Shown piece after piece: positions 25,105 through 64,000 of a stretch of 64,000 nt of DNA. Positions within the stretch are counted from its first letter, which is position 1; every line of letters begins with the position of its first letter. The notes beneath the pieces are model-generated. The model searched no databases. It saw only the letters and a program-made list of their open reading frames with translations, and was not told the DNA's origin. Origin of the DNA: Deltaproteobacteria bacterium (lineage in GTDB: Bacteria; Desulfobacterota; Binatia; HRBIN30; CADEER01); the NCBI GenBank assembly GCA_029262455.1, contig JAJCZJ010000031.1, positions 124,001 to 188,000 on the forward strand, in the 5' to 3' direction. Made by a program: the position numbers and the translations under genes.

Positions 25105-27795
25105 ATGCCAGAGCCAACTTCGATCATTCGGCGCAGACTTAGCAGTCCGGCCTGCTTCGCCCTAACGCTCGGGCTGATCGCCATCTGCGCGGTCTCAGCC
25201 GGCGCCACCGAGACCACGGTGCGCCCACAATACGACATCAAAGCAACGGTTTCGCTGCAGCCATCAACGGTTTACGGAACGGTCAGCGTTCAGTTCACAA
25301 ACCACAGCGACAAGACTGTCCGCGACGCTGTAATCTTCCTCTATCCAAACCGATTCTCAGCCGACAAACTCACCGACCTCGCCAGGCCCTTCATTCATCC
25401 CGAAGAAGAGTTCGACGAGGGATCCCTAACCATTTCGGAGGTCCTCGACGACGGATACCCGACAACCCAAGAACCAGTCGAGGGACTTCGGCCGGGGATC
25501 GCCATCCGGGTTCGGATCGCCCCTTTGAAACCAGGACAATCGCGACGTCTCGGCCTGGGCTTTCGCACCGAGATACCGCATCGATTCGGCGGCTTCGGGG
25601 AGTTTGAGAACCAACTCACGCTGCTCGGGGGATGGCATCCCTACCTCGCCGCGCTCGGCCAAGACGGCACCTGGCTCACGACCGGTTCGCCACCGATGGC
25701 CGACTACCAAGTCACCATCAGACCGACCACCGTCATGCAGGTTGCGCTCAACGGAACGTTCCGCGCAGGTGCGACGGAGTTCACCCACTCCGTGTCGGGG
25801 ACGCCGTACCTATCTCTCATCGCATCACCGAGGCTTCTCAAAGCAACCCGACAAGTCGGCGCCACCGAAGTGACATTGCTGCTGCGGCCAAAGCGCTTCG
25901 CCTTTCGCTTGGTCCCCGGACCCGACGCGGCCGGCCTCATCATGAATGCCGCCGAGGAAGCTCTTCTCGATGCACCGGCCGGAGTACCCAGCGCACCCCG
26001 GGAACTACTGTTGATCGAGGCCCCACTGCGCATGCACCTGATCGAGCCGAGCGAAGGGATGGTTGTCTTTTCCGATCGCCTCTACAAGACTTTCGGGCCG
26101 CTGCGTGAGTTTCACCGCGCCCATCTAGTCGAAGCGATCTATCAAGAAGTGCTGCGTCCGCGGCTGGCCAAACTCGAAGCTGCAAGCGACTACGGCTGGG
26201 TGGCCGAGGCATACGCACACGAGCTGGCGTCGCGCTACATGGATGCCCGAGAGCCGGAGCGCCGCCTTCTCACCGACTGGCTCGACATGTTTGACTTCCT
26301 GGCGGTCGTTGACCGATTCGAGAAAGTACCGAAGATCCCGTTCGTCAGCTCGTTTTTCCAGCAAACGCCGACCATCGATCCAGGTGACGAACGCATCATG
26401 ACGTTCAACGGTCCGCGCCCACCTGGGCGCATCATCTTGTCGAAGGTCCGTGATCTCGTCGGCGAGGATTCGTTCGACGAGATGCTCAACACCTGTCTGA
26501 CCGCCGATCGCCCGCTGCGCGCCTGCGCCTCCGAGCGATTCCCAGGCCAAGGAATCAACACGTTGCTCGACCAATGGGCAGCCGCTTACCCGACGCTCAA
26601 CTACTGGATCGAGGAAGTCGACTTCAACGAGCCGGATCCAGACAGCAACGGCAATCGCTACAAGACGACCGTGCAGGTTCGCCGCGAGTCCTCGCGGCCC
26701 GTACGAGAGCCAGTGACCGTCCGGCTGCGGACAATCGGGGGGTCTGAGGTCGACGTCAAGTGGAACGCCGAAGGCGAGGTCGCGCTGCTCTCGGAATCGA
26801 CCGACGATCGCGTCTACCAAGTCTACATCGATCCGGAAGAGAAACTGATCGAAACGCGCCGCGACGACAACGCTTGGCTGCCGCGCCTGGAAGTTCTGTT
26901 GGACGGAGCCGATATCGCCGTCAGTTCAACCCAGTTCGGTTTCGGCACCAACATCGTCTCGCGCATCTATCAGGACTACCGCAAAGACCTGGCACTGACA
27001 GCGACTTACACCAACCGCGGCGTCGGCTTCGCAGCCGGGCCACGCTTTCATTTCGGCGAACCCATCGACGTCACTCGCTACCGTCACAACCTGCACATGT
27101 TTTACTCGTACACCGCCCTCGATTCCGATTTCGATCACCTCGCACGGCCGAACTTCATCACCACAGGCAATACCGCCGGGCTCGGTGTCCGCTACGACTA
27201 CACCGACGTCTTCTACGATCAGAACCCAAGCCTGCAGCGCCAGCTGCGTCTCCACGCCGACTGGCACGACCGCAACCTCGGCAGTGACTTCGACTACGTG
27301 AGCTGGGGCTACAACGCTTCGGTCGTGTTCCCTGTCGTCACACCCCGTACCCTCATCGGATTCCAAGCGGTCAACAACTTCAGCCGCGCAGACGGCGACA
27401 GCGTCGTACCGAATCAAGGTCTCTACAGCCTCGGCGGCTCACGGTCGATTCGCGGCATCGGCTTCGGTGACAAGCTCGGCCGCAATTTGTTCGTCCTGCG
27501 CGGCGAGGTACGCCAGTCGATCTACCCCGAGCTCGACCTGAACCTCCTCGACCTCGTAACCCTGCGGCGAACCCAGTTTCGGGTCTTTGCCGACGGTGGA
27601 AACGTGAGTGACTCCGCCGGCAGAGTCTACGACCCGAGCGATTGGGCGGTCGGCGTCGGTCTCGGATTCGGGCTCGTGTACGAGGCGGCCGGGTTCTTCC
27701 CGGCAATCGCCTTCATCGAAGTCGCAACACGCGTCGACAAGAGCGATCAGATCGACGATGTACAGGTGCTCTTCGGCACCAAACAGTCATTCTGA
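25105..27795 (+). CDS. M1-peptidase-like domain fused to an Omp85/D15-type outer-membrane barrel
   Basis: 896 residues with a signal peptide (ALTLGLIAICAVSAGA). Residues 40-250 resemble the N-terminal beta domain of M1 aminopeptidases (YDIKATVSLQPSTVYGTVSVQF). Residues 250-520 match the helical catalytic region, but the zinc motif HExxH is lost: the site reads H340-LVE-AIY, and the later motif is WVAEAYAHELASRY. Residues 620-896 form a beta barrel of BamA/D15 type with LGGSRSIRGIGFGDKLGRN and a terminal aromatic (QSF) for Bam insertion. It is probably anchored in the outer membrane with a periplasmic, non-catalytic domain. Its role is unknown. It stands as a single gene. Confidence 0.75.
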   Translation: MPEPTSIIRRRLSSPACFALTLGLIAICAVSAGATETTVRPQYDIKATVSLQPSTVYGTVSVQFTNHSDKTVRDAVIFLYPNRFSADKLTDLARPFIHPEEEFDEGSLTISEVLDDGYPTTQEPVEGLRPGIAIRVRIAPLKPGQSRRLGLGFRTEIPHRFGGFGEFENQLTLLGGWHPYLAALGQDGTWLTTGSPPMADYQVTIRPTTVMQVALNGTFRAGATEFTHSVSGTPYLSLIASPRLLKATRQVGATEVTLLLRPKRFAFRLVPGPDAAGLIMNAAEEALLDAPAGVPSAPRELLLIEAPLRMHLIEPSEGMVVFSDRLYKTFGPLREFHRAHLVEAIYQEVLRPRLAKLEAASDYGWVAEAYAHELASRYMDAREPERRLLTDWLDMFDFLAVVDRFEKVPKIPFVSSFFQQTPTIDPGDERIMTFNGPRPPGRIILSKVRDLVGEDSFDEMLNTCLTADRPLRACASERFPGQGINTLLDQWAAAYPTLNYWIEEVDFNEPDPDSNGNRYKTTVQVRRESSRPVREPVTVRLRTIGGSEVDVKWNAEGEVALLSESTDDRVYQVYIDPEEKLIETRRDDNAWLPRLEVLLDGADIAVSSTQFGFGTNIVSRIYQDYRKDLALTATYTNRGVGFAAGPRFHFGEPIDVTRYRHNLHMFYSYTALDSDFDHLARPNFITTGNTAGLGVRYDYTDVFYDQNPSLQRQLRLHADWHDRNLGSDFDYVSWGYNASVVFPVVTPRTLIGFQAVNNFSRADGDSVVPNQGLYSLGGSRSIRGIGFGDKLGRNLFVLRGEVRQSIYPELDLNLLDLVTLRRTQFRVFADGGNVSDSAGRVYDPSDWAVGVGLGFGLVYEAAGFFPAIAFIEVATRVDKSDQIDDVQVLFGTKQSF

Positions 27796-27877
27796 AGCTC
27801 CACCGGTCCTTGACACTCCCGAGTATTCCGATTGTGTCGTAATCGCGGCTAATGCCGCGGGAGATTGATTGGAACCC

Positions 27878-28315
27878 ATGGCGTCAACCCGAAGGCCCTC
27901 GACCAAAAAGCGCTCCGCATCTCGACGCAGAGCGTCGACCAAACTACGCAAAACGCTTGCGCTGGTAGCTCACGACGGCAAGAAGGCCGAGATGCTCGCG
28001 TTCGCATTGGACCATTCCAAGGTCCTCGATCGCTACGACCTGGTCGGCACCAACACGACGAGCAAACTTCTCGAGAGCAAAGGCGGACTAAAGATCCGGG
28101 CCATGCTGTCGGGTCCGCTCGGTGGCGACGCACAGATCGCGGCGATGGTCGCGCAAGGAGAAATCGAAGCGGTCTTTTTCTTTATCGATCCGCTCGGAAA
28201 GCACTCACACGACCCTGACATTCACACCCTCATGCGGATCTGCAACGTCCACGAAGTCCCGCTGGCAACAAACCCCGCAACCGCAAGCTTCGTCATTTCC
28301 GAGAAGACCCTATAA
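27878..28315 (+). CDS. mgsA: Methylglyoxal synthase
   Basis: 145 residues with an extra basic N-terminal tail of about 25 residues. The core has LALVAHDGKKAEML, LVGTNTTSKLLES (phosphate-binding GT-x-T-T), MLSGPLGGDAQIAA with the catalytic Asp, and FFIDPLGKHSHDPDIHTLMR and PLATNPATASFVI. It converts dihydroxyacetone phosphate to methylglyoxal and phosphate, a bypass of lower glycolysis. ATG 27878 is chosen over TTG 27869. It lies 16 bp before the ketosynthase gene, so it may be co-transcribed with it, though no pathway link is evident. Confidence 0.9.
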   Translation: MASTRRPSTKKRSASRRRASTKLRKTLALVAHDGKKAEMLAFALDHSKVLDRYDLVGTNTTSKLLESKGGLKIRAMLSGPLGGDAQIAAMVAQGEIEAVFFFIDPLGKHSHDPDIHTLMRICNVHEVPLATNPATASFVISEKTL

Positions 28316-28331
28316 CGGCACAACCAGGCGC

Positions 28332-29534
28332 ATGACTATCAGCTGCAGACTATCGAAGCTTGGGCTGGTCAACGCCCTGGGGACTTCACACGAAGAAGTC
28401 TCCGCCGGGCTCTTTGCAGGCAACCAGGACGGCCTGGTCAAACGAGACGACATTGTCCCAGATCGTTCGTTCTACTTGGGCGAAGTTCAAGGTCGATTGC
28501 CAGAGATTCCGGACACGCTGGTGCGTTTTCGTTGCCGCAATAATCAACTGTCATTGGCCGCTCTTCAAACGATCGAGAAGGAAGTTCGCACCGCCATCGA
28601 AGCCGTCGGCAGGCATCGCGTTGGGGTGGTGTTCGGCACCAGCACATCCGGTGTCTCCGATGCCGAAGTGGCGTTGCGCTACCAACGAGAGCGCGGCGGA
28701 CTCGCGCCCGGATTCGCTTACGACCAGCTCGAGTTCGGCGGCGGCGCCGGCTTTATCGCCGACTACCTAGACATCTGCGGGCCGACATACACCATCTCGA
28801 CAGCATGCTCGTCGGGCGCACGGGCTCTCGCATCGGCGCGGGCACTGCTCGAGCTGGATGTGTGCGACGCCGTCATCGCCGGAGCTACCGACAGCCTATG
28901 TAATCTTACGATCTTCGGCTTCTCTGCTCTGCAAGCTATCTCCGAAGAAATTACCAACCCGTGCAGCGTGAATCGCAAAGGCTTGACCCTCGGCGAAGCC
29001 TCGGCACTGTTCCTGGTCACCCGCGACGCAGGCGGGATTCAGCTCCTCGGAGTAGGCGAATCGAGTGAGGCCCACCATATGTCGGCACCCGATCCGAGCG
29101 GCGGCGGCGCCGAGACAGCAATGCGCGCTGCCCTCGAGGACGCCGGGGCCGATGCGTCGCAAATCGCATATCTGAACCTCCACGGCACTGGCACACCACT
29201 CAACGACAGCATGGAGTGCGCCGCTGTGGCACGGGTCTTCGGCAACGAACTCCCCTGCTCGTCTACAAAGCCATTGGTCGGTCATACACTCGGCGCCGCC
29301 GGCGCTACCGAAGCCGCCTTCTGTTGGCTTGCCTTACAAGCTGCGGATCTCGAGCTACCCCTCATCCCGCATCGATGGGACGGTGCACGCGATCCGGAGC
29401 TCGCACCGATCAACCTCGTCGAGTCCAGCCACAGCTCCAGCCCCAGCCCCAAGGGCGCCTCGCTCGTCGCCACCAACTCCTTCGGCTTCGGCGGCAACAA
29501 CTGTGTCCTCATCTTCGGACGGGAGACCCCGTGA
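28332..29534 (+). CDS. Beta-ketoacyl-ACP synthase (aryl polyene-type KS)
   Basis: 400 residues of FabF/KAS II fold with the full catalytic triad: Cys159 in ISTACSSGA, His284 in NLHGTGTPLND and His318 in STKPLVGHTLGAAG. The C-terminal signature SFGFGGNNCVLIF is intact. It would extend an acyl chain with malonyl-ACP, as the ApeO/ApeR ketosynthases do in aryl polyene clusters. The true start is ATG 28332; the frame is open further upstream but overlaps mgsA. The next gene encodes a second, shorter KS-like protein. Confidence 0.88.
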   Translation: MTISCRLSKLGLVNALGTSHEEVSAGLFAGNQDGLVKRDDIVPDRSFYLGEVQGRLPEIPDTLVRFRCRNNQLSLAALQTIEKEVRTAIEAVGRHRVGVVFGTSTSGVSDAEVALRYQRERGGLAPGFAYDQLEFGGGAGFIADYLDICGPTYTISTACSSGARALASARALLELDVCDAVIAGATDSLCNLTIFGFSALQAISEEITNPCSVNRKGLTLGEASALFLVTRDAGGIQLLGVGESSEAHHMSAPDPSGGGAETAMRAALEDAGADASQIAYLNLHGTGTPLNDSMECAAVARVFGNELPCSSTKPLVGHTLGAAGATEAAFCWLALQAADLELPLIPHRWDGARDPELAPINLVESSHSSSPSPKGASLVATNSFGFGGNNCVLIFGRETP

Positions 29535-29613
29535 GCGAAGCGAGGTCAGCGGCTGGCCCTCAGAAGCCTCGGCGAAGGAGAGAGCGCGAAGCGCGTACGG
29601 GAGCAAGCTCACC

Positions 29614-30339
29614 ATGCTAGGCGCTGTCGTCGTGCGGACATCGGCGTGGGCTCCGGGCATCGAGTCAGCCGCAGCCGTCCGAGCCTGGATCGAAAACCCA
29701 CAGCCCCTCGCGGCAACGGGACATCCGGACGCGAAGTTTCTCCCAGCGATGCTTCGTCGCCGCTGCACGCCGCTGACGAGAATCATGCTCACTGCCGCGC
29801 ACGAATGCTGTGACAATGCTGCGCAAGAGGTGCGCACCGTCTTTGCTTCTCGTCACGGCAGCATCAACGAATCCATCGGACTTCTCGAAGCGATCGCCGC
29901 ATCGGGTCGCCTTTCGGCGGCGACGTTCAGCCACAGCGTTCACAACGCGCAAGCAGGGCTGTTTTCCATTGCTTCCAGCAATCGCCAGGCGTCAAGTTCT
30001 ATAGCGGCGCAGCAAGACAGCTTTCCGACGGGCTTTCTCGAAGCAATGACTCATCTACAACGCGACCCAGACCGTCCGGTACTGCTGGTGATGGGCGATG
30101 TCCCCCTAGCGGAAGCGTTCGCTCCGCTCGTCGACGAACCCGCCGCCTCGTATGCTGTGGCGATGCTATTGGCGAAAAACGGCAACGGTCCGCACATTTC
30201 GCTGCGCATCGAACCCGGGGAAAAGTCGATCGCCTCCCCACCTTGGCCCGCCGCGTTCCAATTTCTGCACTGGCTCGCTTCGACAGACTCAGAGTTGTCG
30301 ATCCCCACCCCCGGCCGGATCTGGCGCTTCTCGCGCTAG
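29614..30339 (+). CDS. Ketosynthase-like partner / chain-length-factor type protein (ApeC-like)
   Basis: 241 residues, well short of a full ketosynthase (~400). It matches the N-terminal Ketoacyl-synt_2 family found in aryl polyene and flexirubin clusters: PAMLRRRCTPLTRIMLTAAHECC, VFASRHGSINESIGLLEAI, and FSHSVHNAQAGLFSIAS, where an active-site Cys would be expected and is absent. Such proteins probably pair with the KS as a chain-length factor. ATG 29614 is preceded by GGGAGC nine bases upstream. It follows the KS by 79 bp and ends 16 bp from the convergent membrane-protein gene. Confidence 0.78.
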   Translation: MLGAVVVRTSAWAPGIESAAAVRAWIENPQPLAATGHPDAKFLPAMLRRRCTPLTRIMLTAAHECCDNAAQEVRTVFASRHGSINESIGLLEAIAASGRLSAATFSHSVHNAQAGLFSIASSNRQASSSIAAQQDSFPTGFLEAMTHLQRDPDRPVLLVMGDVPLAEAFAPLVDEPAASYAVAMLLAKNGNGPHISLRIEPGEKSIASPPWPAAFQFLHWLASTDSELSIPTPGRIWRFSR

Positions 30340-30355
30340 GAAAGTTCCGCACCGC

Positions 30356-31135
30356 TCACGGCGGCGGCATCCCGAGTTCTTCGCGCTTACGGCGGATGTA
30401 CTCCATCGACAGCCGACCCATCCGGGTGTCTTCGGCAGGAAACAATCGCGACCAGATGCGATCGAACAGGTTGTTGTGGAAGTAATAGCGGAACCACCAC
30501 TTGCGAACGACGAAATCGACTGCACAGATCGCACCGATCAGGGCAAATACGATCCACCCCGTGTACGATCGCCACATCTCGACACGCCCGGTAAGAGCCA
30601 ACCACGAAATGACTACTGCGTTGACGGCAAAGAACAGGCTCCAACCAACTGTGCTCTTACGGCAGTACGGCTTAATGAAGTCGGGAGCGAACGGAACGAT
30701 GAACTTCGCGACATGCTCGACCATCGACACTGACTGCTGCAAGGTATCCAAAAACAGTTTGCACAGCATCAAGTAGATCAATGCCGGCACCAGCAGGAGG
30801 TACCGAAGATCCTCGGTGACAGCGGTCACCAGAGCGATACCGAGCATCATCAGGTGCGGAAGAGACAGCAACTGAATCGGAATTCCCATCGCACGCCGCA
30901 CCAATGCAAAGAAGATGCCGTAAACAACCAGTCCCAACGCCCCGGCACGGACCCCGGCGCGGGCAATGAGCCATTCAAAGAGAAACGGGTATGCGAATAT
31001 CCCGACGGTCAGCAACGTACCGAGCCCCACTTGAATCAGAGTCGGCTGGAAGCTGCCCGGCGCGACGACTTCAGCTCCCTGCTTCGGTTCGACGCCAGCT
31101 AACGAATCGCTCGACTCAGGCAAGCGGCTGCTCAC
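30356..31135 (-). CDS. COG4648-type inner-membrane protein of aryl polyene clusters
   Basis: 259 residues with six or seven hydrophobic segments and a charged tail (MGRLSMEYIRRKREELGMPPP). Membrane proteins of this kind recur in aryl polyene and flexirubin gene clusters. The function is not established, but a role in assembly or transport of the lipid-linked polyene is likely. Its start overlaps the end of the flavin enzyme gene by 20 bp, which puts it firmly in the same - strand operon. It is the last gene of that operon and converges with the KS-like gene. Confidence 0.68.
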   Translation of the reverse strand: MSSRLPESSDSLAGVEPKQGAEVVAPGSFQPTLIQVGLGTLLTVGIFAYPFLFEWLIARAGVRAGALGLVVYGIFFALVRRAMGIPIQLLSLPHLMMLGIALVTAVTEDLRYLLLVPALIYLMLCKLFLDTLQQSVSMVEHVAKFIVPFAPDFIKPYCRKSTVGWSLFFAVNAVVISWLALTGRVEMWRSYTGWIVFALIGAICAVDFVVRKWWFRYYFHNNLFDRIWSRLFPAEDTRMGRLSMEYIRRKREELGMPPP

Positions 31136-32675
31136 TCATGAAGGACTGCAATGGACGGTGTACGGTCGCTTCCTCCTCGCCGAGTAACTCATGGGCCCGG
31201 CAAAGAACGCGGTTAAAAATCTGCTCGGTCTTGCGCAGCACATCCCGGCGCGAGCGCGTCGTCCCAACTTGGTCGACGAAATCAATGTTCTCGAGCCCGT
31301 AGGAGAAACCTCCGACATTGGCTCGGTGATACAAGCCTCGGTCGCGCAACGAGGCCTCGACTTGGCGGAACAGCAAGGAGAAATTGCGCAATGCTTGCAG
31401 CACAAACGGTCGCATCCGTTGTTGTCGACGCAAGAAGCGCGCGTCGAGGTGTTGGTCCTGCATGTACGGCGATACCCAGAGGTTGTAATAGCAGCCGATA
31501 TCGAGGTCCCACTTCATGCGCATGAGATCGAAGCTGCCCATCCCTCCGTACAACCCGCGGTAGAGCAGCATCGCCGACTCGTGACGGAAGTGCATGAAGC
31601 CCTCATACAGATCGAGGCGCTCAGCGATCGAGTCGTCACCTTCGCCGGCAAAGTCGCGTTCGATCAGGTCACAAAGAAAGTCGTTCTCCAACGCGATAAA
31701 ATCCGAGCCGGGGCTGTAAAAGGGGTCGGCCGACGTCGCCGCCTCTCCGGTCAGACCCCAACGCTCGGTCGAAAAGAACTGCTTCGTCCCGTACGCAATC
31801 TGCGAGAAGCTCCCACAATCGACGATCTCTGCGTTGCCCAGAAGCTCTTCGATGCCACGATGCTTGCGCAGGAAGGCACGGAACCCGTCGGCTGTGCGAA
31901 CTTCTCTGCCGCGGGCAATATCTCCGACGAGGCCTACGCTGGTAACCCCGCCGCGCAGCGGAATGACCCAGAACCAATAGCCCGGATACCAGAAGTGCAG
32001 CGTCGAAAGCCGGCGCGACGTGTGCCGAACACGGCCGCGCCATTCTTCGGTCCCCAGCTGATCGACATCCGCTACGCCGCGAAAACGCGCCCACACCGAT
32101 CCAACATGGTGCTCCGATTCCGGCAACCGCAGGTCGCGCTGCTTGGCAATCACGCCGGCTCGTCCGCCGGCATCGATCAGCCAACGCGCCTCAACATCCG
32201 ACTTTTCGCCGTCGCGCTCAACGACGAAGCGGTGCTGACGACTCGGATCGAGCTCGACCGCTTCAACGCGCGCCCCTGTGTAGACATCGACACCGATGCC
32301 GGCGACCATCTCGAGCAGATCGGTTTCCAAGCGCGCGCGATCGATCTGGAATGCCGGGTGGAACGGCAAATTGATCGGCCCTATCTCCGACATCTGGGTC
32401 AACGGAGTCTCGCACTCGACGTCGTCGAAGAAATAGCGCAAGCCGTTCTTCGGCACATGGTTCTCGTACAGATAGCCACTCAACTGGTGCCGGCGAATCA
32501 AATGGTTGGAGGCAATCTCAACCAATGATTCGCCAACTTTGTAAGACCGCTCCGTACTCTTCTCAAAGAGACCGATGTCGAGCGAAGGTCTCGCACGCTT
32601 CAGTTGGCGGGCGAGCAATGAGCCCGCCATGCCGCCACCAATAACGGCAACGTCGTAGGTACGCCGCTGCAACAT
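31116..32675 (-). CDS. Flavin-dependent halogenase-like oxidoreductase
   Basis: 519 residues, the usual size of tryptophan-halogenase family enzymes. The FAD site is DVAVIGGGMAGSLLARQL at residues 8-25, followed by SYKVGESLVEIA, and residues 234-239 read WFWVIP, matching the W-x-W-x-I-P motif associated with flavin halogenases and their suppression of monooxygenation. Xanthomonadin and flexirubin clusters carry related enzymes, and xanthomonadins are brominated, so a ring-halogenating role is plausible. I did not identify the catalytic Lys with certainty. The start overlaps the ketoreductase stop (TAATG). Confidence 0.8.
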   Translation of the reverse strand: MLQRRTYDVAVIGGGMAGSLLARQLKRARPSLDIGLFEKSTERSYKVGESLVEIASNHLIRRHQLSGYLYENHVPKNGLRYFFDDVECETPLTQMSEIGPINLPFHPAFQIDRARLETDLLEMVAGIGVDVYTGARVEAVELDPSRQHRFVVERDGEKSDVEARWLIDAGGRAGVIAKQRDLRLPESEHHVGSVWARFRGVADVDQLGTEEWRGRVRHTSRRLSTLHFWYPGYWFWVIPLRGGVTSVGLVGDIARGREVRTADGFRAFLRKHRGIEELLGNAEIVDCGSFSQIAYGTKQFFSTERWGLTGEAATSADPFYSPGSDFIALENDFLCDLIERDFAGEGDDSIAERLDLYEGFMHFRHESAMLLYRGLYGGMGSFDLMRMKWDLDIGCYYNLWVSPYMQDQHLDARFLRRQQRMRPFVLQALRNFSLLFRQVEASLRDRGLYHRANVGGFSYGLENIDFVDQVGTTRSRRDVLRKTEQIFNRVLCRAHELLGEEEATVHRPLQSFMSEQPLA

Positions 32676-33430
32676 TACATCATGCCCCCGTTCACAGAGA
32701 TGGTCTCGCCGGTGATGTAAGCCGCCCCTTCGCTGAAGAGAAACGCCACCACGGCCGCAACCTCTTCAGGTTTGCCAAGACGGCGCATCGGAATCATTGC
32801 GGCCAGACCCTCGACCATCGCGCCATCGAGCATTTCGGTTTCGATCAGGCCCGGGGCCACACAGTTCACGGTAATCTTGCGCTTCGCCAGTTCTTGCGCC
32901 AGCGATTTCGCCGCCCCGATCAGGCCCGCCTTCGAGGCCGCGTAGCTGACCTGGCCGCGATTCCCGGACAAACCGGCGAGCGAGGTCATCGCGACAATCC
33001 GGCCACCGCGGCGGCTTCGGATCATCGGCATCGTCAACGGCTGGAGCACGTTATAGAACGCATCGAGGTTCGTCCGCAGGACACGGTCCCAATCCTCACC
33101 CTTGATCGACGGAAACGCCGCGTCGGCACGAATCCCCGCGTTGCAGACCACTCCGTAGTAGGCACCGTTCACCTCGATGTCCGCTGCGAGCGCCGCAGCA
33201 CTCTTATCGCGATCGGCAACGTCGAACGGAAGCAGGGTCGCCACGCGGCCACGCTCTTCGACTTCGGTAGCCACGGCTTTCGCCGCGTCCGCGTTCGACC
33301 GATAGTTGATCACGACATCGAATCCCGCATCGGCGAGCGACACACACACCGCCTTGCCGATGCCGCGGCTGCCACCAGTCACCAGAACCCGGCGCGGCGC
33401 GTCTGCGTCCACTTTGCTGCGCGGACTCAT
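32675..33430 (-). CDS. 3-oxoacyl-ACP reductase (FabG/ApeQ type)
   Basis: 251 residues of the short-chain dehydrogenase family. The cofactor loop is TGGSRGIGKAV (residues 19-29), then VVCNAGIRADAAF, and the catalytic set is Ser in VAMTSLAG, Tyr and Lys in YAASK. The end VNGGMM is typical of FabG. It reduces 3-ketoacyl-ACP with NADPH in each elongation round. It couples to the flavin enzyme gene by a 1-bp overlap and follows the dehydratase gene by 56 bp. Its placement makes it the cluster's own ketoreductase rather than the housekeeping FabG. Confidence 0.92.
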   Translation of the reverse strand: MSPRSKVDADAPRRVLVTGGSRGIGKAVCVSLADAGFDVVINYRSNADAAKAVATEVEERGRVATLLPFDVADRDKSAAALAADIEVNGAYYGVVCNAGIRADAAFPSIKGEDWDRVLRTNLDAFYNVLQPLTMPMIRSRRGGRIVAMTSLAGLSGNRGQVSYAASKAGLIGAAKSLAQELAKRKITVNCVAPGLIETEMLDGAMVEGLAAMIPMRRLGKPEEVAAVVAFLFSEGAAYITGETISVNGGMM

Positions 33431-33486
33431 TTTGGTTGTGCTCCCGTGCGCGCTGCGCGCTCCGTTGAGCTCGCTTCGCTCATCAA

Positions 33487-33927
33487 TCAGCCCTCCGGCC
33501 CATCGGCGAGAAGATAGACATTGATACGCGCGCTGGCGAGCAGCTCCTTGGTTTGGTCATCGAGAATCTCACAGGCGAACGATAGCATCTGGCTGCCGGC
33601 GTGCACACGACGGGCAGACACCCGCAACTGCTGGCCGGGGCGAAAACAATCGGCCGCCAGCTCCAGCTTGCGCGTGCCGAGCAACAGTCCCGCGCGCGGC
33701 GACTCACCTGCCGCGCGACCGACTAAGCCGCCGTGTACTGCAGCGCATTGCGCCATGTACTCGAGCCCAACCCACGCCGGCACAACGCCATGATCGTCGA
33801 GGAACAGTCGGCTGTCGGTGGGATCTGCTGTACAGGTGGTTTGTTCCGCATCGTGCTCGCACACCTCGCGCAACAACAACATCGGCCCACTGTGCGGGAC
33901 CAGATCTCCGAGTTCAGGATAGCTCAT
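33487..33927 (-). CDS. Hotdog-fold 3-hydroxyacyl-ACP dehydratase (ApeP-like)
   Basis: 146 residues. It begins LGDLVPHSGPMLLLREVCEHD, the PHSGPM-x-LL signature of ApeP-like dehydratases, and continues with PAWVGLEYMAQCAAVHGGL, the central hotdog helix carrying the catalytic acid region. It dehydrates 3-hydroxyacyl-ACP to the enoyl form, giving the conjugated polyene when no enoyl reductase acts. No enoyl reductase is present in the window. It is the first gene of the - strand sub-operon 33927-30356 and diverges from the ABC ATPase gene 151 bp away. Confidence 0.85.
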   Translation of the reverse strand: MSYPELGDLVPHSGPMLLLREVCEHDAEQTTCTADPTDSRLFLDDHGVVPAWVGLEYMAQCAAVHGGLVGRAAGESPRAGLLLGTRKLELAADCFRPGQQLRVSARRVHAGSQMLSFACEILDDQTKELLASARINVYLLADGPEG

Positions 33928-34078
33928 CGGTACAGTCGCCAGACCCTAGCAGCCGACAGCAGTGCCGGCATCCGGGGGAACTCCCTTCGCCAGATTTTCC
34001 CCGAGATTCAATAAATGTCACTTCGGTATCGCTAGTCGACTGTTAGAATTATCCGGATATCTGCCCAAAAGAGAGCTG

Positions 34079-34858
34079 ATGATCGAGATTCGCAACGTCA
34101 CCCAACACTACACCACCCGTCCCGTCCTGCGAGACGTCTCAGTGACCATTGAGCAGGGACAGCTCGTCGCGGTCATGGGTGCCAACGGCATGGGCAAAAG
34201 TACTCTGCTGGGCGTGATCGCTGGCACACTTGCACCCTTCCGCGGTGAAATAGCGATCGACGGAAAGGTCCGCCGGTCGACCCCCGAGCAGGAGCTCGCG
34301 ATCCGCAAGCGGGTCGTCTACCTACCCGACCACCCCTGGCTGCCGAGCGAACAGACTCCCAAGGAGTTTCTTCTAGCCGTCGGCCGGCTCTACGACATCG
34401 AAGAAGCGCGCCTCTTCGATCACGTCGATCGGCTCGTAGACTTGTTCCACCTAGAGGACGTCGCCAATAGTACGATCCACAGCCTCTCGAACGGCCAACG
34501 CAAGAAGACGGCAATCGCCTCGGCCCTGGTAACCGAGGCTCCCTACCTGATCCTCGACGAACCATTCACCGGCGGCCTCGATCCCTCCGGCATCATCGCC
34601 CTCAAGCACGTTCTACGAGGACTCGCCGACCGCGCAGACACGACCGTCGTCATCGCCTCCCAACTCCCCGAAATCGTCGAAGCCCTAGCCCACCGAGTTA
34701 TCGTAATGACCAACGGCAAGGTCGAGCTCGACGAAGAACTATCCAAGCTCACCGAAATCGACGGCAAACAAGTCAGCCTGAGCGAAGCCCTCGACCACAT
34801 CATCCATTCCGAATCCCTGGAACGAATTCGTCGTTACACCGAGGGCCAGTCCAGATGA
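34079..34858 (+). CDS. ABC transporter ATP-binding protein
   Basis: 259 residues with Walker A GANGMGKST, signature LSNGQRKKTAIASAL and Walker B YLILDEPFTGGLDP. The H-loop position reads VVIASQLPE, with Gln in place of the switch His, so hydrolysis may be altered. I chose ATG 34079; the frame is open to 33962. It overlaps the membrane-protein gene by 4 bp (ATGA). The pair sits on + between two halves of the aryl polyene-type operon. It could export a product or be an unrelated insertion. Confidence 0.82.
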   Translation: MIEIRNVTQHYTTRPVLRDVSVTIEQGQLVAVMGANGMGKSTLLGVIAGTLAPFRGEIAIDGKVRRSTPEQELAIRKRVVYLPDHPWLPSEQTPKEFLLAVGRLYDIEEARLFDHVDRLVDLFHLEDVANSTIHSLSNGQRKKTAIASALVTEAPYLILDEPFTGGLDPSGIIALKHVLRGLADRADTTVVIASQLPEIVEALAHRVIVMTNGKVELDEELSKLTEIDGKQVSLSEALDHIIHSESLERIRRYTEGQSR

Positions 34859-36006: not shown

Positions 36007-36050
36007 TACCCCCTATCACGCCTGATCTTGCTGCATGCGAAGCATCCGCG

Positions 36051-36114
36051 TTCATCCGTGGCCCCCTCAACGCTCGCCTAGTAGAGGTAGAAATTGAACC
36101 ACTGCAGCGGCCAC
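36051..36114 (-). repeat. Decayed duplicate of the acyltransferase 3' end
   Basis: 64 bases here match 36317-36380, inside the end of the downstream LpxL-like gene, at 60 of 64 positions. The copy on - would encode the same QWFNFYFYW-like ending but is interrupted and has no gene around it. The intervening 200 bp (36115-36316) shows no clear similarity or gene. This looks like the remnant of a tandem duplication of an acyltransferase gene. Confidence 0.85.
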
Positions 36115-36307
36115 GAAACAGTGCAGGGACGATCCGAGAAAACCAGATCCGCTACGCGGCTCGGGCGGAGCCTCCGCCCTCCATTTATCTCGATGCACCT
36201 CCACCGAAATCAAGAACCAGCACAGCGAGCACCACTCTTAGCCTCAGCCTTTCATCTCGATCGGCGTTCACCTCATCAGCGGTTTTGCTCCGGCCATCCG
36301 CCGCGGC

Positions 36308-37276
36308 TCAATCGTGTTCATCCGTGGCCCCATCAACGCTCGCCCAGTAGAAATAGAAATTGAACCACTGCAGCGGCCACTTGCGACAATAGTCCTCGAG
36401 CGTGGCCACGTAGGCCCCCAGCAATTCCACCGCCCGCTCGCGCCGCACCTTCCGCGGAATCACCTCACCTTCGGTCAACACCCGAACAGCAGCACTGTAT
36501 CGACCGTCACCGGTACGCACACACATCGACGTCAGCAACGGGCACCCAAGAGTACACGCCAACAAATACGGACTCAGCGGAAAACGCGCCGGCCGGCCGA
36601 GAAAGTCCACCGTCTCGACCTGCTCTTTGCTACCCGGTGGAACGCGGTCCCCGAGGATACCGACGAACTCGCCGCGATCGAGACATGCCTTGATCGCAAA
36701 CCCGGTCTGCGCGCTGCCAGGATCGAGCCGCAGTACCCGCAAGCTGCTCGACGGATCGAGCCGCTCGAAAAAGGCGGTCACACGCTCGGCCTGATCGGTG
36801 AACATCAACACGTTCATCACCACACCGTGCTCGCCGGCGAGAATCCGCGGCATGTCGAAGCTACCTAGATGTGCCCCGAGCAAGATACCGCCGCGCCCCT
36901 CCTCGGCGAATCGCATGAGAAGCTCACTACCACTGTGATGAAACTCGTATGACCCGAAGCCACCTCCCCAAGCCACCATTCGATCGTAAAGATTCACCGC
37001 GAACTCATAGTTGTGGTGCAGCCCGTCAATGCGCCGCGGCGGTTGTGAAGGAGCCACACCACCTGTCCAAGCCCGTAGAGTATTCAGGTAGTCGACTGTC
37101 GAGTCGGCTGCACGCGGGTGCGTCAAGTGGAAGTATGCCGCGATCGGGTACAGCAGCAGGCGCGCCACACGCGGTCCAGCCACACGATGAAGCGTCGCCA
37201 TGAATCGCATCGCCGCCATCGAACCAACTTCGGCAAGGTTCTCCCAATGCCTCCGATCGCTCACCTCCCACTCCAT
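36308..37276 (-). CDS. LpxL/LpxM-like acyltransferase of the aryl polyene-type cluster
   Basis: 322 residues. The N terminus has HWENLAEVGS, typical of this family. The catalytic motif is H-x4-D in GAHLGSFDMPR, followed by VGILGDRVPPGS and the end QWFNFYFYW. LpxL-type enzymes acylate lipid A; relatives in aryl polyene clusters are thought to place the polyene acyl chain on its lipid anchor. The start overlaps the GT2 gene end by 16 bp, so it is the last gene of the - strand sub-operon 40884-36308. Part of its 3' end is duplicated downstream. Confidence 0.85.
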   Translation of the reverse strand: MEWEVSDRRHWENLAEVGSMAAMRFMATLHRVAGPRVARLLLYPIAAYFHLTHPRAADSTVDYLNTLRAWTGGVAPSQPPRRIDGLHHNYEFAVNLYDRMVAWGGGFGSYEFHHSGSELLMRFAEEGRGGILLGAHLGSFDMPRILAGEHGVVMNVLMFTDQAERVTAFFERLDPSSSLRVLRLDPGSAQTGFAIKACLDRGEFVGILGDRVPPGSKEQVETVDFLGRPARFPLSPYLLACTLGCPLLTSMCVRTGDGRYSAAVRVLTEGEVIPRKVRRERAVELLGAYVATLEDYCRKWPLQWFNFYFYWASVDGATDEHD

Positions 37277-38004
37277 GCACGCACCAGGAGACCCGGCATC
37301 CGCGGCACGCTACGGGCCAGCAACCGGGTGTACAAGCGCGCCATCCGCAACGTGTCACGCAACCCGTCGAAGTGGGACAAGCCGCCAGGCAGGTAGCGAA
37401 CGCGGGTCGGCAAGTTGCGCACCGGCACGCCGGCCCAATACAGAGTGACAGCCAACCCCGGTTCGAACTCCATCCGGTCGCCGAGTGATTCCTTCTCCAA
37501 CAGGGCTAACGTCGACGCCAGTGGAACCGCTCTATATCCGCAAAGCGGATCGTCGATCGCGAACGAGTACGTGCAAAGCCAGACGATCGCGCGCGACACT
37601 TGCCGTGCATACAGACGCGCACGATCAACGCTATCGTCAAAGATCGGCTTTCCGAGAATCAGCGCTTCCGGCTCGGCGCGAATCGCCTCAATGAATCGCG
37701 GCAAGTCCGCAAGCTCGTGCTGCCCGTCGGCGTCGAGATGAATCACGTGTGTCGCGCCGCCCTCGCAGGCAAGACGGAACCCGCAGCGCAACGCCGCACC
37801 CTTGCCCCCATTCGGGTCGACGCGATGAACTTCGACACCCGCATTCGATTCCGCCAGCTGCTCGAGAACGACCCGCGTCGCAGCGCCACTTCCATCGTCG
37901 ACGATCAGACACGGCGCAATTCCGTCGATCTGATCGACGATCGCAGTGATCGTATCACCGTGGTCGAAGATCGGGATCAAGATCCACGGTCGGAGTTCAG
38001 TCAC
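37261..38004 (-). CDS. GT2-family glycosyltransferase (dolichol-phosphate mannosyltransferase-like)
   Basis: 247 residues. The GT-A nucleotide-binding start is ILIPIFDHGDTITAIVDQI, then CLIVDDGS, and the metal site HLDADGQHELADLP (D-x-D). A late VRYLPGGLSHFD matches the small cytoplasmic GT2 proteins common in aryl polyene clusters. It would add a sugar from an NDP or polyprenyl donor to the cluster product or its lipid anchor. It overlaps both neighbours (4 bp upstream, 16 bp downstream), so it is tightly co-expressed. Confidence 0.87.
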   Translation of the reverse strand: MTELRPWILIPIFDHGDTITAIVDQIDGIAPCLIVDDGSGAATRVVLEQLAESNAGVEVHRVDPNGGKGAALRCGFRLACEGGATHVIHLDADGQHELADLPRFIEAIRAEPEALILGKPIFDDSVDRARLYARQVSRAIVWLCTYSFAIDDPLCGYRAVPLASTLALLEKESLGDRMEFEPGLAVTLYWAGVPVRNLPTRVRYLPGGLSHFDGLRDTLRMARLYTRLLARSVPRMPGLLVRAWSGR

Positions 38005-39767
38005 TCTGGAGCCTCGCCGACATTCAGCCGGCCGGACGACAGCTCGACAGAACCACGCATGAGGCGAAAGCGGACCCGACCGCGAGCCTCATCCACTTCC
38101 GCGAAGATCTCGAAACGATTCCCCGGCAACAACGGCTCCTTGAACTTGAGCGCCTCCACCGATCGGATCGCCCTACCTACGAATCCCAATCGCGCCACTG
38201 CGGCAACCACCCATCGCACTTGAACAACCCCAGCGACGACCGGAGCACCGTCGAAGTGCCCTTCAAAGTAAGCGAGTCGATCCGGCACGACGCACCGCAA
38301 CCGTAGTGAAGTTTCGCTCAGCGATTCCTCTTCGACGATCGGATCGACGAGCGGCCGATCTTCATCGGTCGAAAACAGCGCATGCAGGGCCGCCGCCGGC
38401 AACTTCCCCTGCGCATTGCGCGGTAGGCTGTCGACAAAACGCCAAGTCTTGGGGAGCAGAACCCGATCAAAAAATGGACTCAACTTCGCCGCCAGCTCGC
38501 GCCCGAGATCGCCACGTCCTAGCTCGGACAGGAAGTGTTGCCCCACCGGAGCCAACACGACCGCGGCGCAAACGCGCTGCTCGGCGCCGCGGCGCACCGC
38601 AATCAGCGCGACATCCTCGACCGTCGGCAAACGCGCCAACTCTGCTTCCATGTCCGGTAAAGACAGCCTCTTGGCCCCTATCTTGACGGTGCGATCGACC
38701 CGGCCGCGCAGCCGAAACGACCCGTCGGTCGCAAACTCCACCCGATCGCCCATGACGAAACGGGTCAGGCCACCGTCCGGCTCACCCACACTGGCGAACG
38801 GTGATCGCACAACGAGTGTGCCGGCCGCGTCTGCACTGACATCAACGTTCGGAAACGGTCTCCACGGCACGTCTCCACCAGCCGGTCGCTGCCGCCACGC
38901 GACGCCGCCAGTTTCGGTCGAGCCAAAGACCTCAAAAGCCGCCTCGCCCACTTGCTCAGCCAGACCCACAGCCGCTTGCTCATCGAGCGGCGCGCCGGAA
39001 GTGAACACTGCGCCCACTCCAGTACCGCGCAGCACTTCCGTCTCGACCATCATTTTTACTTGCACGGGCGATGATACCAGAACCGATGTGCGCTCGCGCA
39101 ATCGTGCCGCAACTTCTTCGCCATGCAGCAAGGTACGCGTTGCGAACTCCCTCCCAGCAGCTAGCGGCCACAGGACCCGAAAGAGACTCCCGTAAATGTG
39201 ATGCGGGGCAACCGTGGCAACGACGCGCGCATCACCGACCGCAGCGCCAAAGACGCGCTCGAGGACGACCACTTCATCATCCAAGTGACGCAATCGTTTG
39301 GCCACACCCTTATTGTCGCCACTGCTTCCCGAGGTATAGAACTCAACGAAGGGAGCATCGCGGTCGAGCTCGCTAAACCCCAACGGCAAATCTTCGGCGA
39401 CTTCGACAGGCACGGCGAGATCGAGATGCTGAAGCCGGTTGTCGGCCGGTTGCCAATCGATGTCGATCAGACATCCGTCAGCCGTCTCCGAGAGCCGCTC
39501 GAGTGTGCCTCGTCCTCCGTTGGGCGGAAGCACCGCAACGCCACCGGCATGAGCGACGGCAAAGAGGCCAACCGCAAGCGATAGGGCGTCCTCGGAAAAC
39601 ACCAGCCACCGGCTTCCGCCGGTGGCTCGAATCTGATCGCGCAGCGCCGCAACCCTGGCGCCGAACTCGGACCACCGAACGACCGTGTCCGCGTCAAAAG
39701 CCACGACCGCCCGATCGTCGTGACCGTTCGCCAGCAGCGATCCGAGCCGGACGAGTTGCCGTTGCAT
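38001..39767 (-). CDS. Acyl-AMP ligase fused to an ApeI-type dehydratase
   Basis: 588 residues. Residues 1-455 are an ANL-family adenylating enzyme: P-loop FYTSGSSGDNKGVAK, FEVFGSTETGGVAWR, GRVDRTVKIGAKRLS and terminal Lys in LPRNAQGKL. Residues 470-588 are a hotdog dehydratase (LAYFEGHFDGAPVVAGVVQ, the H-F-x-G-x-P-V-x-x-G pattern of FabA/FabZ-like proteins). In aryl polyene clusters the ligase (ApeH) loads an aromatic acid on the ACP and ApeI dehydrates; here they are one chain. The ACP gene lies 24 bp upstream, which supports ACP loading. Confidence 0.88.
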   Translation of the reverse strand: MQRQLVRLGSLLANGHDDRAVVAFDADTVVRWSEFGARVAALRDQIRATGGSRWLVFSEDALSLAVGLFAVAHAGGVAVLPPNGGRGTLERLSETADGCLIDIDWQPADNRLQHLDLAVPVEVAEDLPLGFSELDRDAPFVEFYTSGSSGDNKGVAKRLRHLDDEVVVLERVFGAAVGDARVVATVAPHHIYGSLFRVLWPLAAGREFATRTLLHGEEVAARLRERTSVLVSSPVQVKMMVETEVLRGTGVGAVFTSGAPLDEQAAVGLAEQVGEAAFEVFGSTETGGVAWRQRPAGGDVPWRPFPNVDVSADAAGTLVVRSPFASVGEPDGGLTRFVMGDRVEFATDGSFRLRGRVDRTVKIGAKRLSLPDMEAELARLPTVEDVALIAVRRGAEQRVCAAVVLAPVGQHFLSELGRGDLGRELAAKLSPFFDRVLLPKTWRFVDSLPRNAQGKLPAAALHALFSTDEDRPLVDPIVEEESLSETSLRLRCVVPDRLAYFEGHFDGAPVVAGVVQVRWVVAAVARLGFVGRAIRSVEALKFKEPLLPGNRFEIFAEVDEARGRVRFRLMRGSVELSSGRLNVGEAPE

Positions 39768-39791
39768 ACCGCTACCGAGAATCGTGGGCTG

Positions 39792-40061
39792 CTATTTGAC
39801 TCGGTGCTCTCGCACAAAATCCGCGAGGTTGCGCACGGAGGCAAAGATCACCTGATTGCGATCGGGGTCGTCCTCGATTTTGACGCCATAGCTCTCTTCC
39901 AGAACCACCGCTAACTCCAGAGCGTCGATCGAATCCAACCCGAGACCCTCGACGAACAGCGGGGCGTCGGTTTCGATCTCGGCTGGCTCGATATCCTCCA
40001 GCGCAAGCGCGTCCACGATCAATGATTTCAGGTCGATCTCGATAGTATCAGACATCTGCAT
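39792..40061 (-). CDS. Acyl carrier protein
   Basis: 89 residues, acidic. The phosphopantetheine site is Ser in GLGLDSIDALELAVVLEE (the D-S-I/L motif, at about residue 43). It carries the growing chain for the ketosynthase, reductase and dehydratases of the cluster. The start lies inside the end of the PlsC-like gene (14-bp overlap); ATG 40061 or ATG 40055 could be used. Only one ACP is visible, while known aryl polyene clusters usually have two, so a second may lie outside the window. Confidence 0.92.
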   Translation of the reverse strand: MQMSDTIEIDLKSLIVDALALEDIEPAEIETDAPLFVEGLGLDSIDALELAVVLEESYGVKIEDDPDRNQVIFASVRNLADFVREHRVK

Positions 40062-40884
40062 AGCCTAGCTCTCGAAGGAAATATTCCCGCATCACCTGAT
40101 TGACTTTGCGGGCGGCAAGACCGCGGCTCTCCGTTCCATCAACACATTCTTTCGCGGAGATCGGCTCGCCAACGGTAAACGACATTCTCGGTGTTCCCTC
40201 CGGTATGTCGTACCAGGCCCGCCCCTTCAACCCGAAGGGGGGGGTGCAACGAATCACGATCGGCAGCATGTCGCATCCACTGGCCAGAGCAATCCGCGCC
40301 GCGCCGCGATGGAACGGATGCAGGGCCGCTTCCGGCGAGCGCGTCCCTTCCGGAAAAATCAATACCCGCCGGCCCGCAGCCAGACGCCGCGCACTCTCTT
40401 CGATCACCCGTCGTGGATCGTCATTGCTGAGATGACCACCCTCGACTATCGCCCGACCGATAATCGGCTGACCGATCCAGCTGACCTCGGCGATGTTGTC
40501 CACCTGCTCCATCATCGAGACCAAAAACGTCGCATCGAGGGCCGTCGGGTGATTCGCCACCATTAGCAGCGGGCCCGGCTGCAGCAGCCTATCGATTCCG
40601 TAGAAACGCACATCAATCACGCGCAGAACGCCCACGACTCGACGCACGACCCGCGCCGCCCGGTGCAGCGCCCACTGCGTCAAGTCACCGCGCGATTCCG
40701 ACCGTCGCAGCCTGGACGCAATCGGCACGACAACCCAGGTCGCCACTGCGATCGTGGCTCCAAACGTGAAGTAGACCAGCCCAACCCGCACCAGCCGAAA
40801 CAGACGTAGCGCCAATCGAAGCGGCGAAACAACGCAAGCACGGCCCTCCAGCCCGCTTGCCCGGGTGGTTTCCTTCGCGTTCAC
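40048..40884 (-). CDS. PlsC-like 1-acylglycerol-3-phosphate acyltransferase
   Basis: 278 residues with one or two N-terminal membrane segments (VGLVYFTFGATIAVATWVV). The acyltransferase motif is NHPTALDATF (H-x4-D), followed by LIFPEGTRSPEAALHPF, the second conserved block that binds the phosphate. Members of this family in aryl polyene clusters are believed to build the lipid anchor. It is the first gene of the - strand sub-operon. The intergenic region upstream (40885-41082) should hold the promoter. Confidence 0.87.
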   Translation of the reverse strand: MNAKETTRASGLEGRACVVSPLRLALRLFRLVRVGLVYFTFGATIAVATWVVVPIASRLRRSESRGDLTQWALHRAARVVRRVVGVLRVIDVRFYGIDRLLQPGPLLMVANHPTALDATFLVSMMEQVDNIAEVSWIGQPIIGRAIVEGGHLSNDDPRRVIEESARRLAAGRRVLIFPEGTRSPEAALHPFHRGAARIALASGCDMLPIVIRCTPPFGLKGRAWYDIPEGTPRMSFTVGEPISAKECVDGTESRGLAARKVNQVMREYFLRELGYADV

Positions 40885-47058: not shown

Positions 47059-47295
47059 AAGAACCGCAGCGTAAGATGATAGCGCAGGATGAATCCCCAG
47101 TTGCAACCCAGGTAGGGAAGGGCGTTGACTCGCTCGGATTTGGTCAGCCGGATCTCTCCCGCCGGCGAAGAGCTCGTCATGTCCTCACACAAACCGCACA
47201 CAGCGGCTTGCTTCGAGCGTTGGGGCGACGGAGCAGGCAATCGATCCTGCCGAAAGCTTACACCCTCGACCCTTCTCTCAGTCGGGAGAGTCGGT

Positions 47296-51240: not shown

Positions 51241-51436
51241 GGGGGATTCCCTTCTCTCGCGAATACCCGGTTGCCGCAAGGGCCTCCCTCTGTTCGTAGA
51301 CTAGACTCGGTGTGCTCGGCGTGGCATAGGCCTGAATACGATGTCACCGCGGCAGCGAAAAGTGACGATCCACCGGAGTATGGTGACCGGCCGTCGTCTA
51401 GCGGAGAGCATCCCTTGTTACCGAAGGGGAGGTGGG

Positions 51437-62495: not shown

Positions 62496-62764
62496 AAGAA
62501 TCGAACATCTCACTTCAGGGCAGCCAGTCAAGCCACAATGGGCAGCCAGTCAAGCCAAAGTAGTCGCGCCTACCCACCCCTTGCGCCGGCAGGTCGCCGC
62601 CAGTGAGCCCCGACGGGCGCTGTTTGAAGCCAACAACGCACGGGCGATCACCATACGCCGGCGCTGTCCAACCGCTGGGCAGACCACCAGCGTTGGAAAT
62701 GCCTTCGAGACTCCGGTAACGGGTGGGAGATGGTCCCAACTCGGACACCGACAAACCGAATATT

Positions 62765-64000
62765 ATGACTACAGCTCCGTTGCCAGACGCGCCCGCCATC
62801 TCATCGCACAGCGACGCCCTCAGGGTCGGCACTGATCCGATCACGATCGAGGAGATCGTCGCCGTTGCCAGAGGTCACCGCGGTGTCGCGCTCGACACTT
62901 CGCCCGCTTTTCTTGCCCGCATTACCGCATCGCGCGAAGCTCTCGAAGACAGGTTGGGCAAAGACGGCGCCGTTTATGGCGTTACTACCGGCGTAGGCGC
63001 ATCCGTGACGAACGAGATCCCCGCGGCACTGCGCGACACGATGCCGCAGAACCTGTTCCGGTTTCACGGCTGCGGAACCGGAGCAATCCTCGAGGACGAA
63101 GCGGCTGCGGCTGTCGTCGTCATCCGCTTGATCTCGTTGGCGTGCGGACAATCGGGTGTCCGACTCGAACTGATCGAACGGTTGGCCGCCATGGTCAACC
63201 TCCGACTCTTGCCCCAGATCCCGAGTGAAGGCTCGGTTGGCGCCTCCGGTGACCTGACGCCGCTCTCCTATCTCGCCGCACTAGTCAGCGGCGAGCGCGA
63301 AGCAAGCCTCGCCGGTGGGGTCATGCCCGCCTCCGAAGCCCTCCAACGGTGCGGACTCGAACCATTGCAACTCGCCCCGAAGGAAAGTCTGGCTCTGATG
63401 AACGGCACCAGCGTAATGACCGCGCTGGCATCGATCGGTCACTACCGAGCCATGCGCCTGAGCCGCCTCTGCGCGGCGATCACCGCGATGGCCTGCGATG
63501 TCACGCACGGCAACCCCGAGCACTTCGACGCTCGCCTGCTGGGGGCCAAACCCCACCCCGGCCAGGTCAGGTGCGGCGCCTGGATCCGCAGCGATCTTAC
63601 GTCCAAGCGCAACACCAAGCCCGCTCGGCTGCAGGATCGGTACTCACTGCGTTGCGCCCCTCACGTGATAGGAGCCCTGATCGACGCACTCGAGTTCTCA
63701 CGCAACAGTCTCGAAATCGAGATCAACGGCGTGGACGATAATCCAATCATCAGCGACGACGGCGCGATCCTCCACGGCGGCAATTTCTACGGTGGACATG
63801 TCGCAATGGCTTGTGACTTGCTCAAGACTGCAGTCGCCAACACCGCGGATCTCCTCGACCGACAACTCGTACTGCTGTGTGTCCCTGAAACCAGCGATGG
63901 GCTACCGGCGAACCTCGTCGCCAGCGACGAGGTCGTGCACCACGGATTCAAGGCCATGCAGATCTCGGCTTCGGCTCTCACCGCCGAAGCCCTCAAAGGA
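62765..64000 (+). CDS. Aromatic amino acid ammonia-lyase (HAL/PAL/TAL family), 3' end beyond window
   Basis: 412 codons are open from ATG 62765 to the window edge; the family runs to about 510-540. The MIO cofactor triad is Ala160-Ser161-Gly162 in GSVGASGDLTPLSYLAA. The catalytic Tyr is Tyr71 in YGVTTGVGASV. Further motifs are LMNGTSVMTALAS, AKPHPGQ, QDRYSLRCAPHVIGAL and NGVDDNP. The substrate-selectivity pair is Phe100-His101 (NLFRFHGCG), neither the Ser-His of histidine lyases nor the His-Leu of tyrosine lyases. In aryl polyene and flexirubin clusters such a lyase supplies a cinnamic-type starter. No hut genes are near. Confidence 0.87.
   Translation, partial: MTTAPLPDAPAISSHSDALRVGTDPITIEEIVAVARGHRGVALDTSPAFLARITASREALEDRLGKDGAVYGVTTGVGASVTNEIPAALRDTMPQNLFRFHGCGTGAILEDEAAAAVVVIRLISLACGQSGVRLELIERLAAMVNLRLLPQIPSEGSVGASGDLTPLSYLAALVSGEREASLAGGVMPASEALQRCGLEPLQLAPKESLALMNGTSVMTALASIGHYRAMRLSRLCAAITAMACDVTHGNPEHFDARLLGAKPHPGQVRCGAWIRSDLTSKRNTKPARLQDRYSLRCAPHVIGALIDALEFSRNSLEIEINGVDDNPIISDDGAILHGGNFYGGHVAMACDLLKTAVANTADLLDRQLVLLCVPETSDGLPANLVASDEVVHHGFKAMQISASALTAEALKG

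Follow-up and report, generated by a model that had tools for sequence, protein, structure and literature searches.

Our analysis of the window, that is, the whole 64,000-nucleotide stretch of DNA studied here, revealed a gene whose product joins an M1-aminopeptidase-like N-terminal part, deprived of its zinc site, to an Omp85-type beta-barrel. With an M1-like part in front of such a barrel, the Omp85 superfamily gains an architecture, and in several families of a single bacterial class a peptidase fold has apparently been kept as a non-catalytic part. As the gene lies in an operon of aryl-polyene-like lipid synthesis and export in several relatives, the fusion may be the missing outer-membrane export step, and the family offers a concrete, genetically testable candidate for the outer-membrane step of lipid transport.

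Domain organization of the fusion protein

The open reading frame, which occupies exactly positions 25105-27795 of the forward strand, begins with ATG and contains no internal stop, and the complementary strand in register with it has many stops. The order of the encoded parts is well supported: a signal peptide is followed by an M1-aminopeptidase fold with its Ig-like domain, and then by an Omp85-type barrel ending in Phe (Table 1). Judging from the sequence, the protein is probably secreted.

Table 1. Features of the fusion gene and of its surroundings in the window
Feature	Position	Strand	Basis and remarks
Predicted M1-pseudopeptidase/Omp85 fusion gene	25105..27795	+	896 aa; ORF and homologues
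Putative Sec-type signal peptide, residues 1-33 (RRR, hydrophobic core, AVSAGA)	25105..25203	+	Sequence and hydropathy
M1 N-terminal beta domain, residues ~42-260	25228..25884	+	AF2; hhalign to active M1; profile
M1-like helical domain at the catalytic-domain position, residues ~275-492, zinc site lost	25927..26580	+	AF2, Foldseek, hhalign, alignment
Replacement of HExxH-x18-E: helix, invariant H337, aliphatic 341, W365-x-x-E368	26095..26211	+	Alignment, hhalign
Family-specific motif A-x-VDRFE-x-x-P-x-IPF, residues 400-413	26302..26343	+	Alignment
Ig-like beta domain, residues 498-576	26596..26832	+	AF2, hhalign; common to active M1 relatives
Omp85-type beta-barrel, residues 595-896	26887..27792	+	PF01103/NF047779 matches, AF2 models, Foldseek
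L6 loop motif LGGSRSIRGI (BamA-type GG..(V/I/L)RG), residues 776-785; R783 invariant	27430..27459	+	Alignment
FADGGNV, residues 828-834, conserved; Omp85 FxDxGxV-type motif	27586..27606	+	Alignment
C-terminal Phe (F896), invariant, beta-signal-like end	27790..27792	+	Alignment
MGS-like domain protein	27869..28315	+	Next downstream gene; also in G001 and G002
Beta-ketoacyl synthase	28122..29534	+	True start probably near 28330
Ketoacyl-synt_2 protein	29329..30339	+	Coding part from ~29680
FAD-dependent oxidoreductase, Trp-halogenase-like	31116..32675	-	
FabG-like ketoreductase	32675..33430	-	
ApeP-like dehydratase (PF22817)	33487..33927	-	
Lipid A acyltransferase-like protein	36308..37276	-	
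Glycosyltransferase family 2	37261..38004	-	
AMP-binding enzyme with C-terminal ApeI-like dehydratase	38001..39767	-	
Acyltransferase (PF01553)	40048..40884	-	
Aromatic amino acid lyase (PF00221)	62727..64000	+	LolA_3 and MMPL directly beyond the window end

With the window protein alone (P0001) as query, neither half found anything usable in Pfam, NCBIfam or the PDB sequences; the assignments come from structure models and family profiles. For the full-chain AF2 model (pLDDT 75, pTM 0.68), the top 50 Foldseek matches were exclusively M1 aminopeptidases and M1-type enzymes, led by IRAP (E 4.8e-16) and including ERAP1, APN, LTA4H and a Deinococcus M1 enzyme, with the common fold extending over residues 42-576. 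When the family profile was compared by hhalign with six active M1 relatives from the same order, the alignment covered 507 columns and residues 38-584 of P0001 (probability 99.8, E 5.5e-30); profile hits to active M1 proteins within the N-terminal beta domain reached E values down to 1.4e-28. Homology to M1, the Ig-like domain included, is thus evident in sequence as well as in fold, which bears out the M1 layout that the initial annotation had read in the N-terminal ~500 residues. That annotation missed the Ig-like domain between the two halves and the absence of POTRA domains.

The active relatives, a second set of proteins found by the family profile, are peptidases of ~669 aa from G004, G006, G008, G010, G012 and G013 (L082:1338-3479, L083:3527-5593, L084:4800-6806, L085:4783-6771, L086:4884-6890 and L087:3938-5944); they retain HE(F/T)GH-x18-E and have no barrel. 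They carry an Ig-like domain, end in a conserved aromatic tail (RWGFWFQNLLHLLTGL) and are sister to the pseudoenzyme.

HExxH is found in all six of these active enzymes and in none of 21 fusion family members, nor does an intact copy occur anywhere in the chain of the window protein. In the alignment of 20 members, H337 and W365 do not vary, and position 341 holds Leu, Val or Ile throughout, so that the second zinc His is missing; in addition, the position of the GxMEN Glu holds Val, Ala or Ile, and that of the catalytic Tyr is not Tyr. The fusion gave no PF01433 match above the cut-off, and a search of the window genome with PF01433 gave no match. The loss of the zinc site had already been recognized from the letters HLVEA, a reading that holds for the loss itself and fails for the motif: H340 is His in just 4/20 members, and the His that never varies, H337, lies three positions before it. 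The register relative to the HExxH helix is uncertain, since the residue aligned with the first zinc His is H337 in hhalign and E343 in MAFFT, six residues apart, yet on these alignments no register yields a zinc site. The M1 half is therefore a predicted non-catalytic pseudoenzyme. The fusion family has invariant motifs of its own, namely PLR (307-309), SD (323-324) and VDRFE (402-406), the last of which is absent from the active relatives, and these new motifs suggest that the M1-like domain has been re-purposed and is not decaying. The reading that metal binding persists in the domain, or that it works as an atypical hydrolase through H337 and other conserved residues, tailoring or releasing lipid at the outer membrane, would agree with the invariance of H337 and with the Glu retained at 338 (13/20) and 368 (12/20), but we regard it as very improbable, given a second zinc His in 0/20 members, the replaced GxMEN Glu and catalytic Tyr, and Asp, Gln or Ala at position 368 in 8/20.

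For the C-terminal half, PF01103 (Omp85) matched 10 of 16 homologues over their last ~300 residues (best 3.2e-11), P0001 itself giving no match, and NF047779 (Omp85_fam) matched 14 of the 16 (best 6.6e-5). Foldseek placed a barrel-only AF2 model (pLDDT 72, pTM 0.75) closest to TamA (E 5.4e-8) and BamA (E 6.1e-8). Like the Omp85/TpsB family, the fusions conserve an L6 signature (GGxRxIRG), an FxDxGxV motif and a Phe at the C terminus, and R783 and F896 are invariant among them; the residue after the L6 RG is Ile or Val, not the Phe/Tyr of (V/I)RG(F/Y). The RGIG-type BamA/D15 signature noted from the sequence at the outset, SIRGIG at residues 781-786, belongs to this Omp85-type barrel. Both models contain 14 long strands, nine before L6 and five after it, against 16 in Omp85/TpsB proteins, a low-confidence number at pLDDT 72-75 from an alignment of 13 sequences. 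BamA likewise has five strands after L6. Unlike BamA and TamA, the fusion contains no POTRA domain, a lack that it shares with some Omp85 subfamilies; the possibility of a misread POTRA was rejected, because the domain adjoining the barrel is the all-beta Ig-like domain common to M1 enzymes, and the family f9 members of the fusion are without even that.

Heinz and Lithgow 2014 (PMC4104836) distinguish ten Omp85 architectures or subfamilies, none of them named with M1 in the part of that paper considered here, and the same part identifies its 'Metallo' group, a candidate that we rejected, with PF00149. The nearest precedent is PlpD, a patatin-Omp85 protein in which an enzyme-fold domain also stands N-terminal to the barrel and whose periplasmic enzyme domain affects membrane lipids (PMC11116518). 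PlpD combines an active patatin lipase with a POTRA domain (PMC11116518), whereas the fusion combines a dead M1 fold with an Ig-like domain. No M1-Omp85 fusion was found in the open-access literature, subscription journals being outside the scope of the search, nor did the open literature yield a described function for this unusual arrangement, in keeping with the earlier remark that none was known.

A fusion family in Binatia

After a first search that gave matches in 22 of 58 relatives, the fusion family was detected in 23 of 148 Binatia-class genomes, at 32-65% identity, once genomes with mere partial matches to other proteins had been removed. Nearly all homologues are intact frames of 800-990 codons, which, with their presence in 23 genomes, indicates that the fusion frame did not arise by chance. 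The same homologues rule out an assembly error joining two unrelated genes, or a decaying pseudogene, explanations to which we assign a negligible probability: one copy (G046) is split over two frames (L035/L047), by a frameshift or a sequencing error, but the intact fusion recurs in ~20 genomes that come from independent studies, and both of its halves contain residues that never vary.

Relatives in genome_contigs came solely from Binatia-type MAGs (named Deltaproteobacteria, bacterium, Polyangiaceae or Candidatus Binatia), in a scan based on two family motifs that remote relatives would escape; the window itself thus most likely belongs to class Binatia. Plasmids and viral contigs contained no relative of the fusion. 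A subfamily of ~800-830 aa (L036, L037, L049, L050, L051 and L053) has no Ig-like domain and bears an HxSVH motif past the W365 position. In G045, a short stretch (G045:C1:146404-146499, L020) matches the C-terminal 34 residues of the family at 69% identity and is probably the remnant of a lost copy; its contig also bears an MMPL homologue.

Gene neighbourhoods

In five genera of three families, across which the fusion is retained at ~42-47% identity, the gene heads a same-strand set encoding an ACP, LolA, a LolB-like lipoprotein and MMPL; by a simple positional estimate, chance would account for this adjacency in ~0.01 genomes in ten. The ACP and LolA genes directly follow the fusion gene in G004, G006, G008 and G010, with those for the LolB-like lipoprotein and MMPL next in order. 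A FabA-like dehydratase was confirmed between LolA and the LolB-like protein in G006, G008 and G010, and an AMP-ligase belongs to the cassette in G004, G008 and G010. In G012 the cassette lies 1-12 kb downstream, interleaved with genes for ketosynthases, FabG and radical SAM. In gene content, the ACP-LolA-LolB-like-MMPL cassette matches the transport set of aryl-polyene clusters. An MMPL homologue occurs in 17 of the 23 family genomes and in 5 of the 125 others (Fisher 2.5e-13, a statistic that ignores phylogeny), and of the seven genomes of family f4, two have the fusion and these are also the two with the MMPL homologue.

Linked ketosynthase, dehydratase, ketoreductase, ACP and AMP-ligase genes form extensive sets in the window region and in both G012 and G026, and partial ones in G006 and G008, where no ketosynthase was found in the flank searched. 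The fusion gene adjoins ketosynthases in G000-G002, with ApeP/ApeI-like dehydratases nearby in G000 and a lyase-LolA-MMPL group on the same contig. In the window, the genes at 28122-40884 and 62727-64000 constitute a candidate aryl-polyene-like cluster, for which the aromatic amino acid lyase could possibly supply a coumarate or cinnamate starter. The lyase-LolA_3-MMPL group occupies contig positions 186726-191358 (L097), with the lyase partly within the window, 35-40 kb from the fusion gene; the LolA-MMPL pair, at a distance of 36 kb, is divergent, with scores of 48 and 95 bits. Gene calls in GC-rich loci were checked by codon position, the longest frames often being shadow frames.

Gene context varies by lineage. 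In f9 the neighbours encode a lipid A acyltransferase-like protein, an acyltransferase, a GT2 and an AMP-ligase; in f10 a Polysacc_synt_3 flippase follows the fusion, with a polysaccharide deacetylase nearby and an AMP-ligase. The cargo may therefore differ, or be a broader glycolipid. Across the class, ApeP tracks the fusion family poorly (17 genomes, four of them shared), and for this reason we make no claim that every cargo is an aryl polyene. A factor for the export or assembly of an envelope polysaccharide or LPS-like glycolipid, with the aryl-polyene neighbours as one context among several, would suit the f10 genes and the GT2 and lipid A acyltransferase-like genes of f9 and the window; we hold it to be rather unlikely, because the tightest conserved cassette, ACP-LolA-FabA-LolB-MMPL, is a set for acyl or polyene lipids.

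A putative outer-membrane step in lipid export

The initial annotation had proposed a substrate-binding chaperone or a secretion device and named no cargo. The fusion may be a secretion device, and the neighbours (LolA, LolB-like protein, MMPL, ACP, dehydratase, ketosynthase and lipid acyltransferases) point to a lipid or polyene cargo. Of the explanations considered, we hold it most likely, at about even odds, that the fusion forms the outer-membrane terminus of an export route for lipids of the aryl-polyene type. In such a route, the MMPL/RND protein would extract the lipid from the inner membrane, and the LolA-like carrier would move it across the periplasm to the LolB-like lipoprotein. The non-catalytic cleft of the M1-like part, assumed to be periplasmic, would then receive the lipid head or chain and deliver it, via the barrel wall or a lateral gate, to the outer leaflet or the surface. 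The M1 fold of LTA4H is able to hold a conjugated polyene acid.

The ApeA-R cluster of E. coli shares with the loci described here an ACP, dehydratase, ketosynthase, ketoreductase, AMP-ligase, acyltransferase, LolA-like and LolB-like proteins and RND/MMPL (PMC8253772). E. coli aryl-polyene clusters contain a LolA-like, LolB-like and RND set, and the study describing them makes no protein responsible for the last step, in which the lipid flips into the outer leaflet (PMC8253772). However, the E. coli cluster includes no barrel, and several of our loci have no nearby ketosynthases or ApeP. The production of aryl polyene lipids by E. coli without such a barrel in the cluster counts against our proposal (PMC8253772), as do the lineage-varying contexts (f10, f9 and G006/G008) and the 36 kb that separate the LolA-MMPL pair from the fusion gene in the window. 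A further claim, that with the fusion a candidate for the outer-membrane translocation of aryl-polyene-type lipids is at hand for the first time, a peptidase fold serving as lipid receptor on an Omp85 barrel, is put forward as a less probable reading; if true, it would describe an Omp85 protein that moves lipid, not protein.

Alternatively, in line with the chaperone of the initial annotation, the fusion could be an accessory factor of protein assembly, in which the dead M1 cleft and the Ig-like domain stand in for POTRA domains and hand a specific outer-membrane protein over to a BamA/TamA-like barrel. Protein assembly is the general function of the Omp85 superfamily in the part of the classification considered here (PMC4104836), the barrel is nearest to TamA and BamA, M1 folds bind peptides, and, with four further Omp85 proteins encoded in the genome, the fusion is an extra one. 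Nevertheless, no outer-membrane protein or autotransporter client adjoins the gene in the annotated flanks, lipid and polyketide genes are what recurs next to it, and POTRA domains are lacking, and we consider this function unlikely.

Other genes of the window were recorded as well. An ABC transporter ATPase and a permease-like protein are encoded inside the aryl-polyene-like region (33962-36006). The published survey of Binatota genomes reports carotenoids and, by a text search, does not mention polyketides. Further downstream, positions 45121-51279 encode a caspase-domain (Peptidase_C14) protein and a 1327-aa lactonase/CARDB protein.
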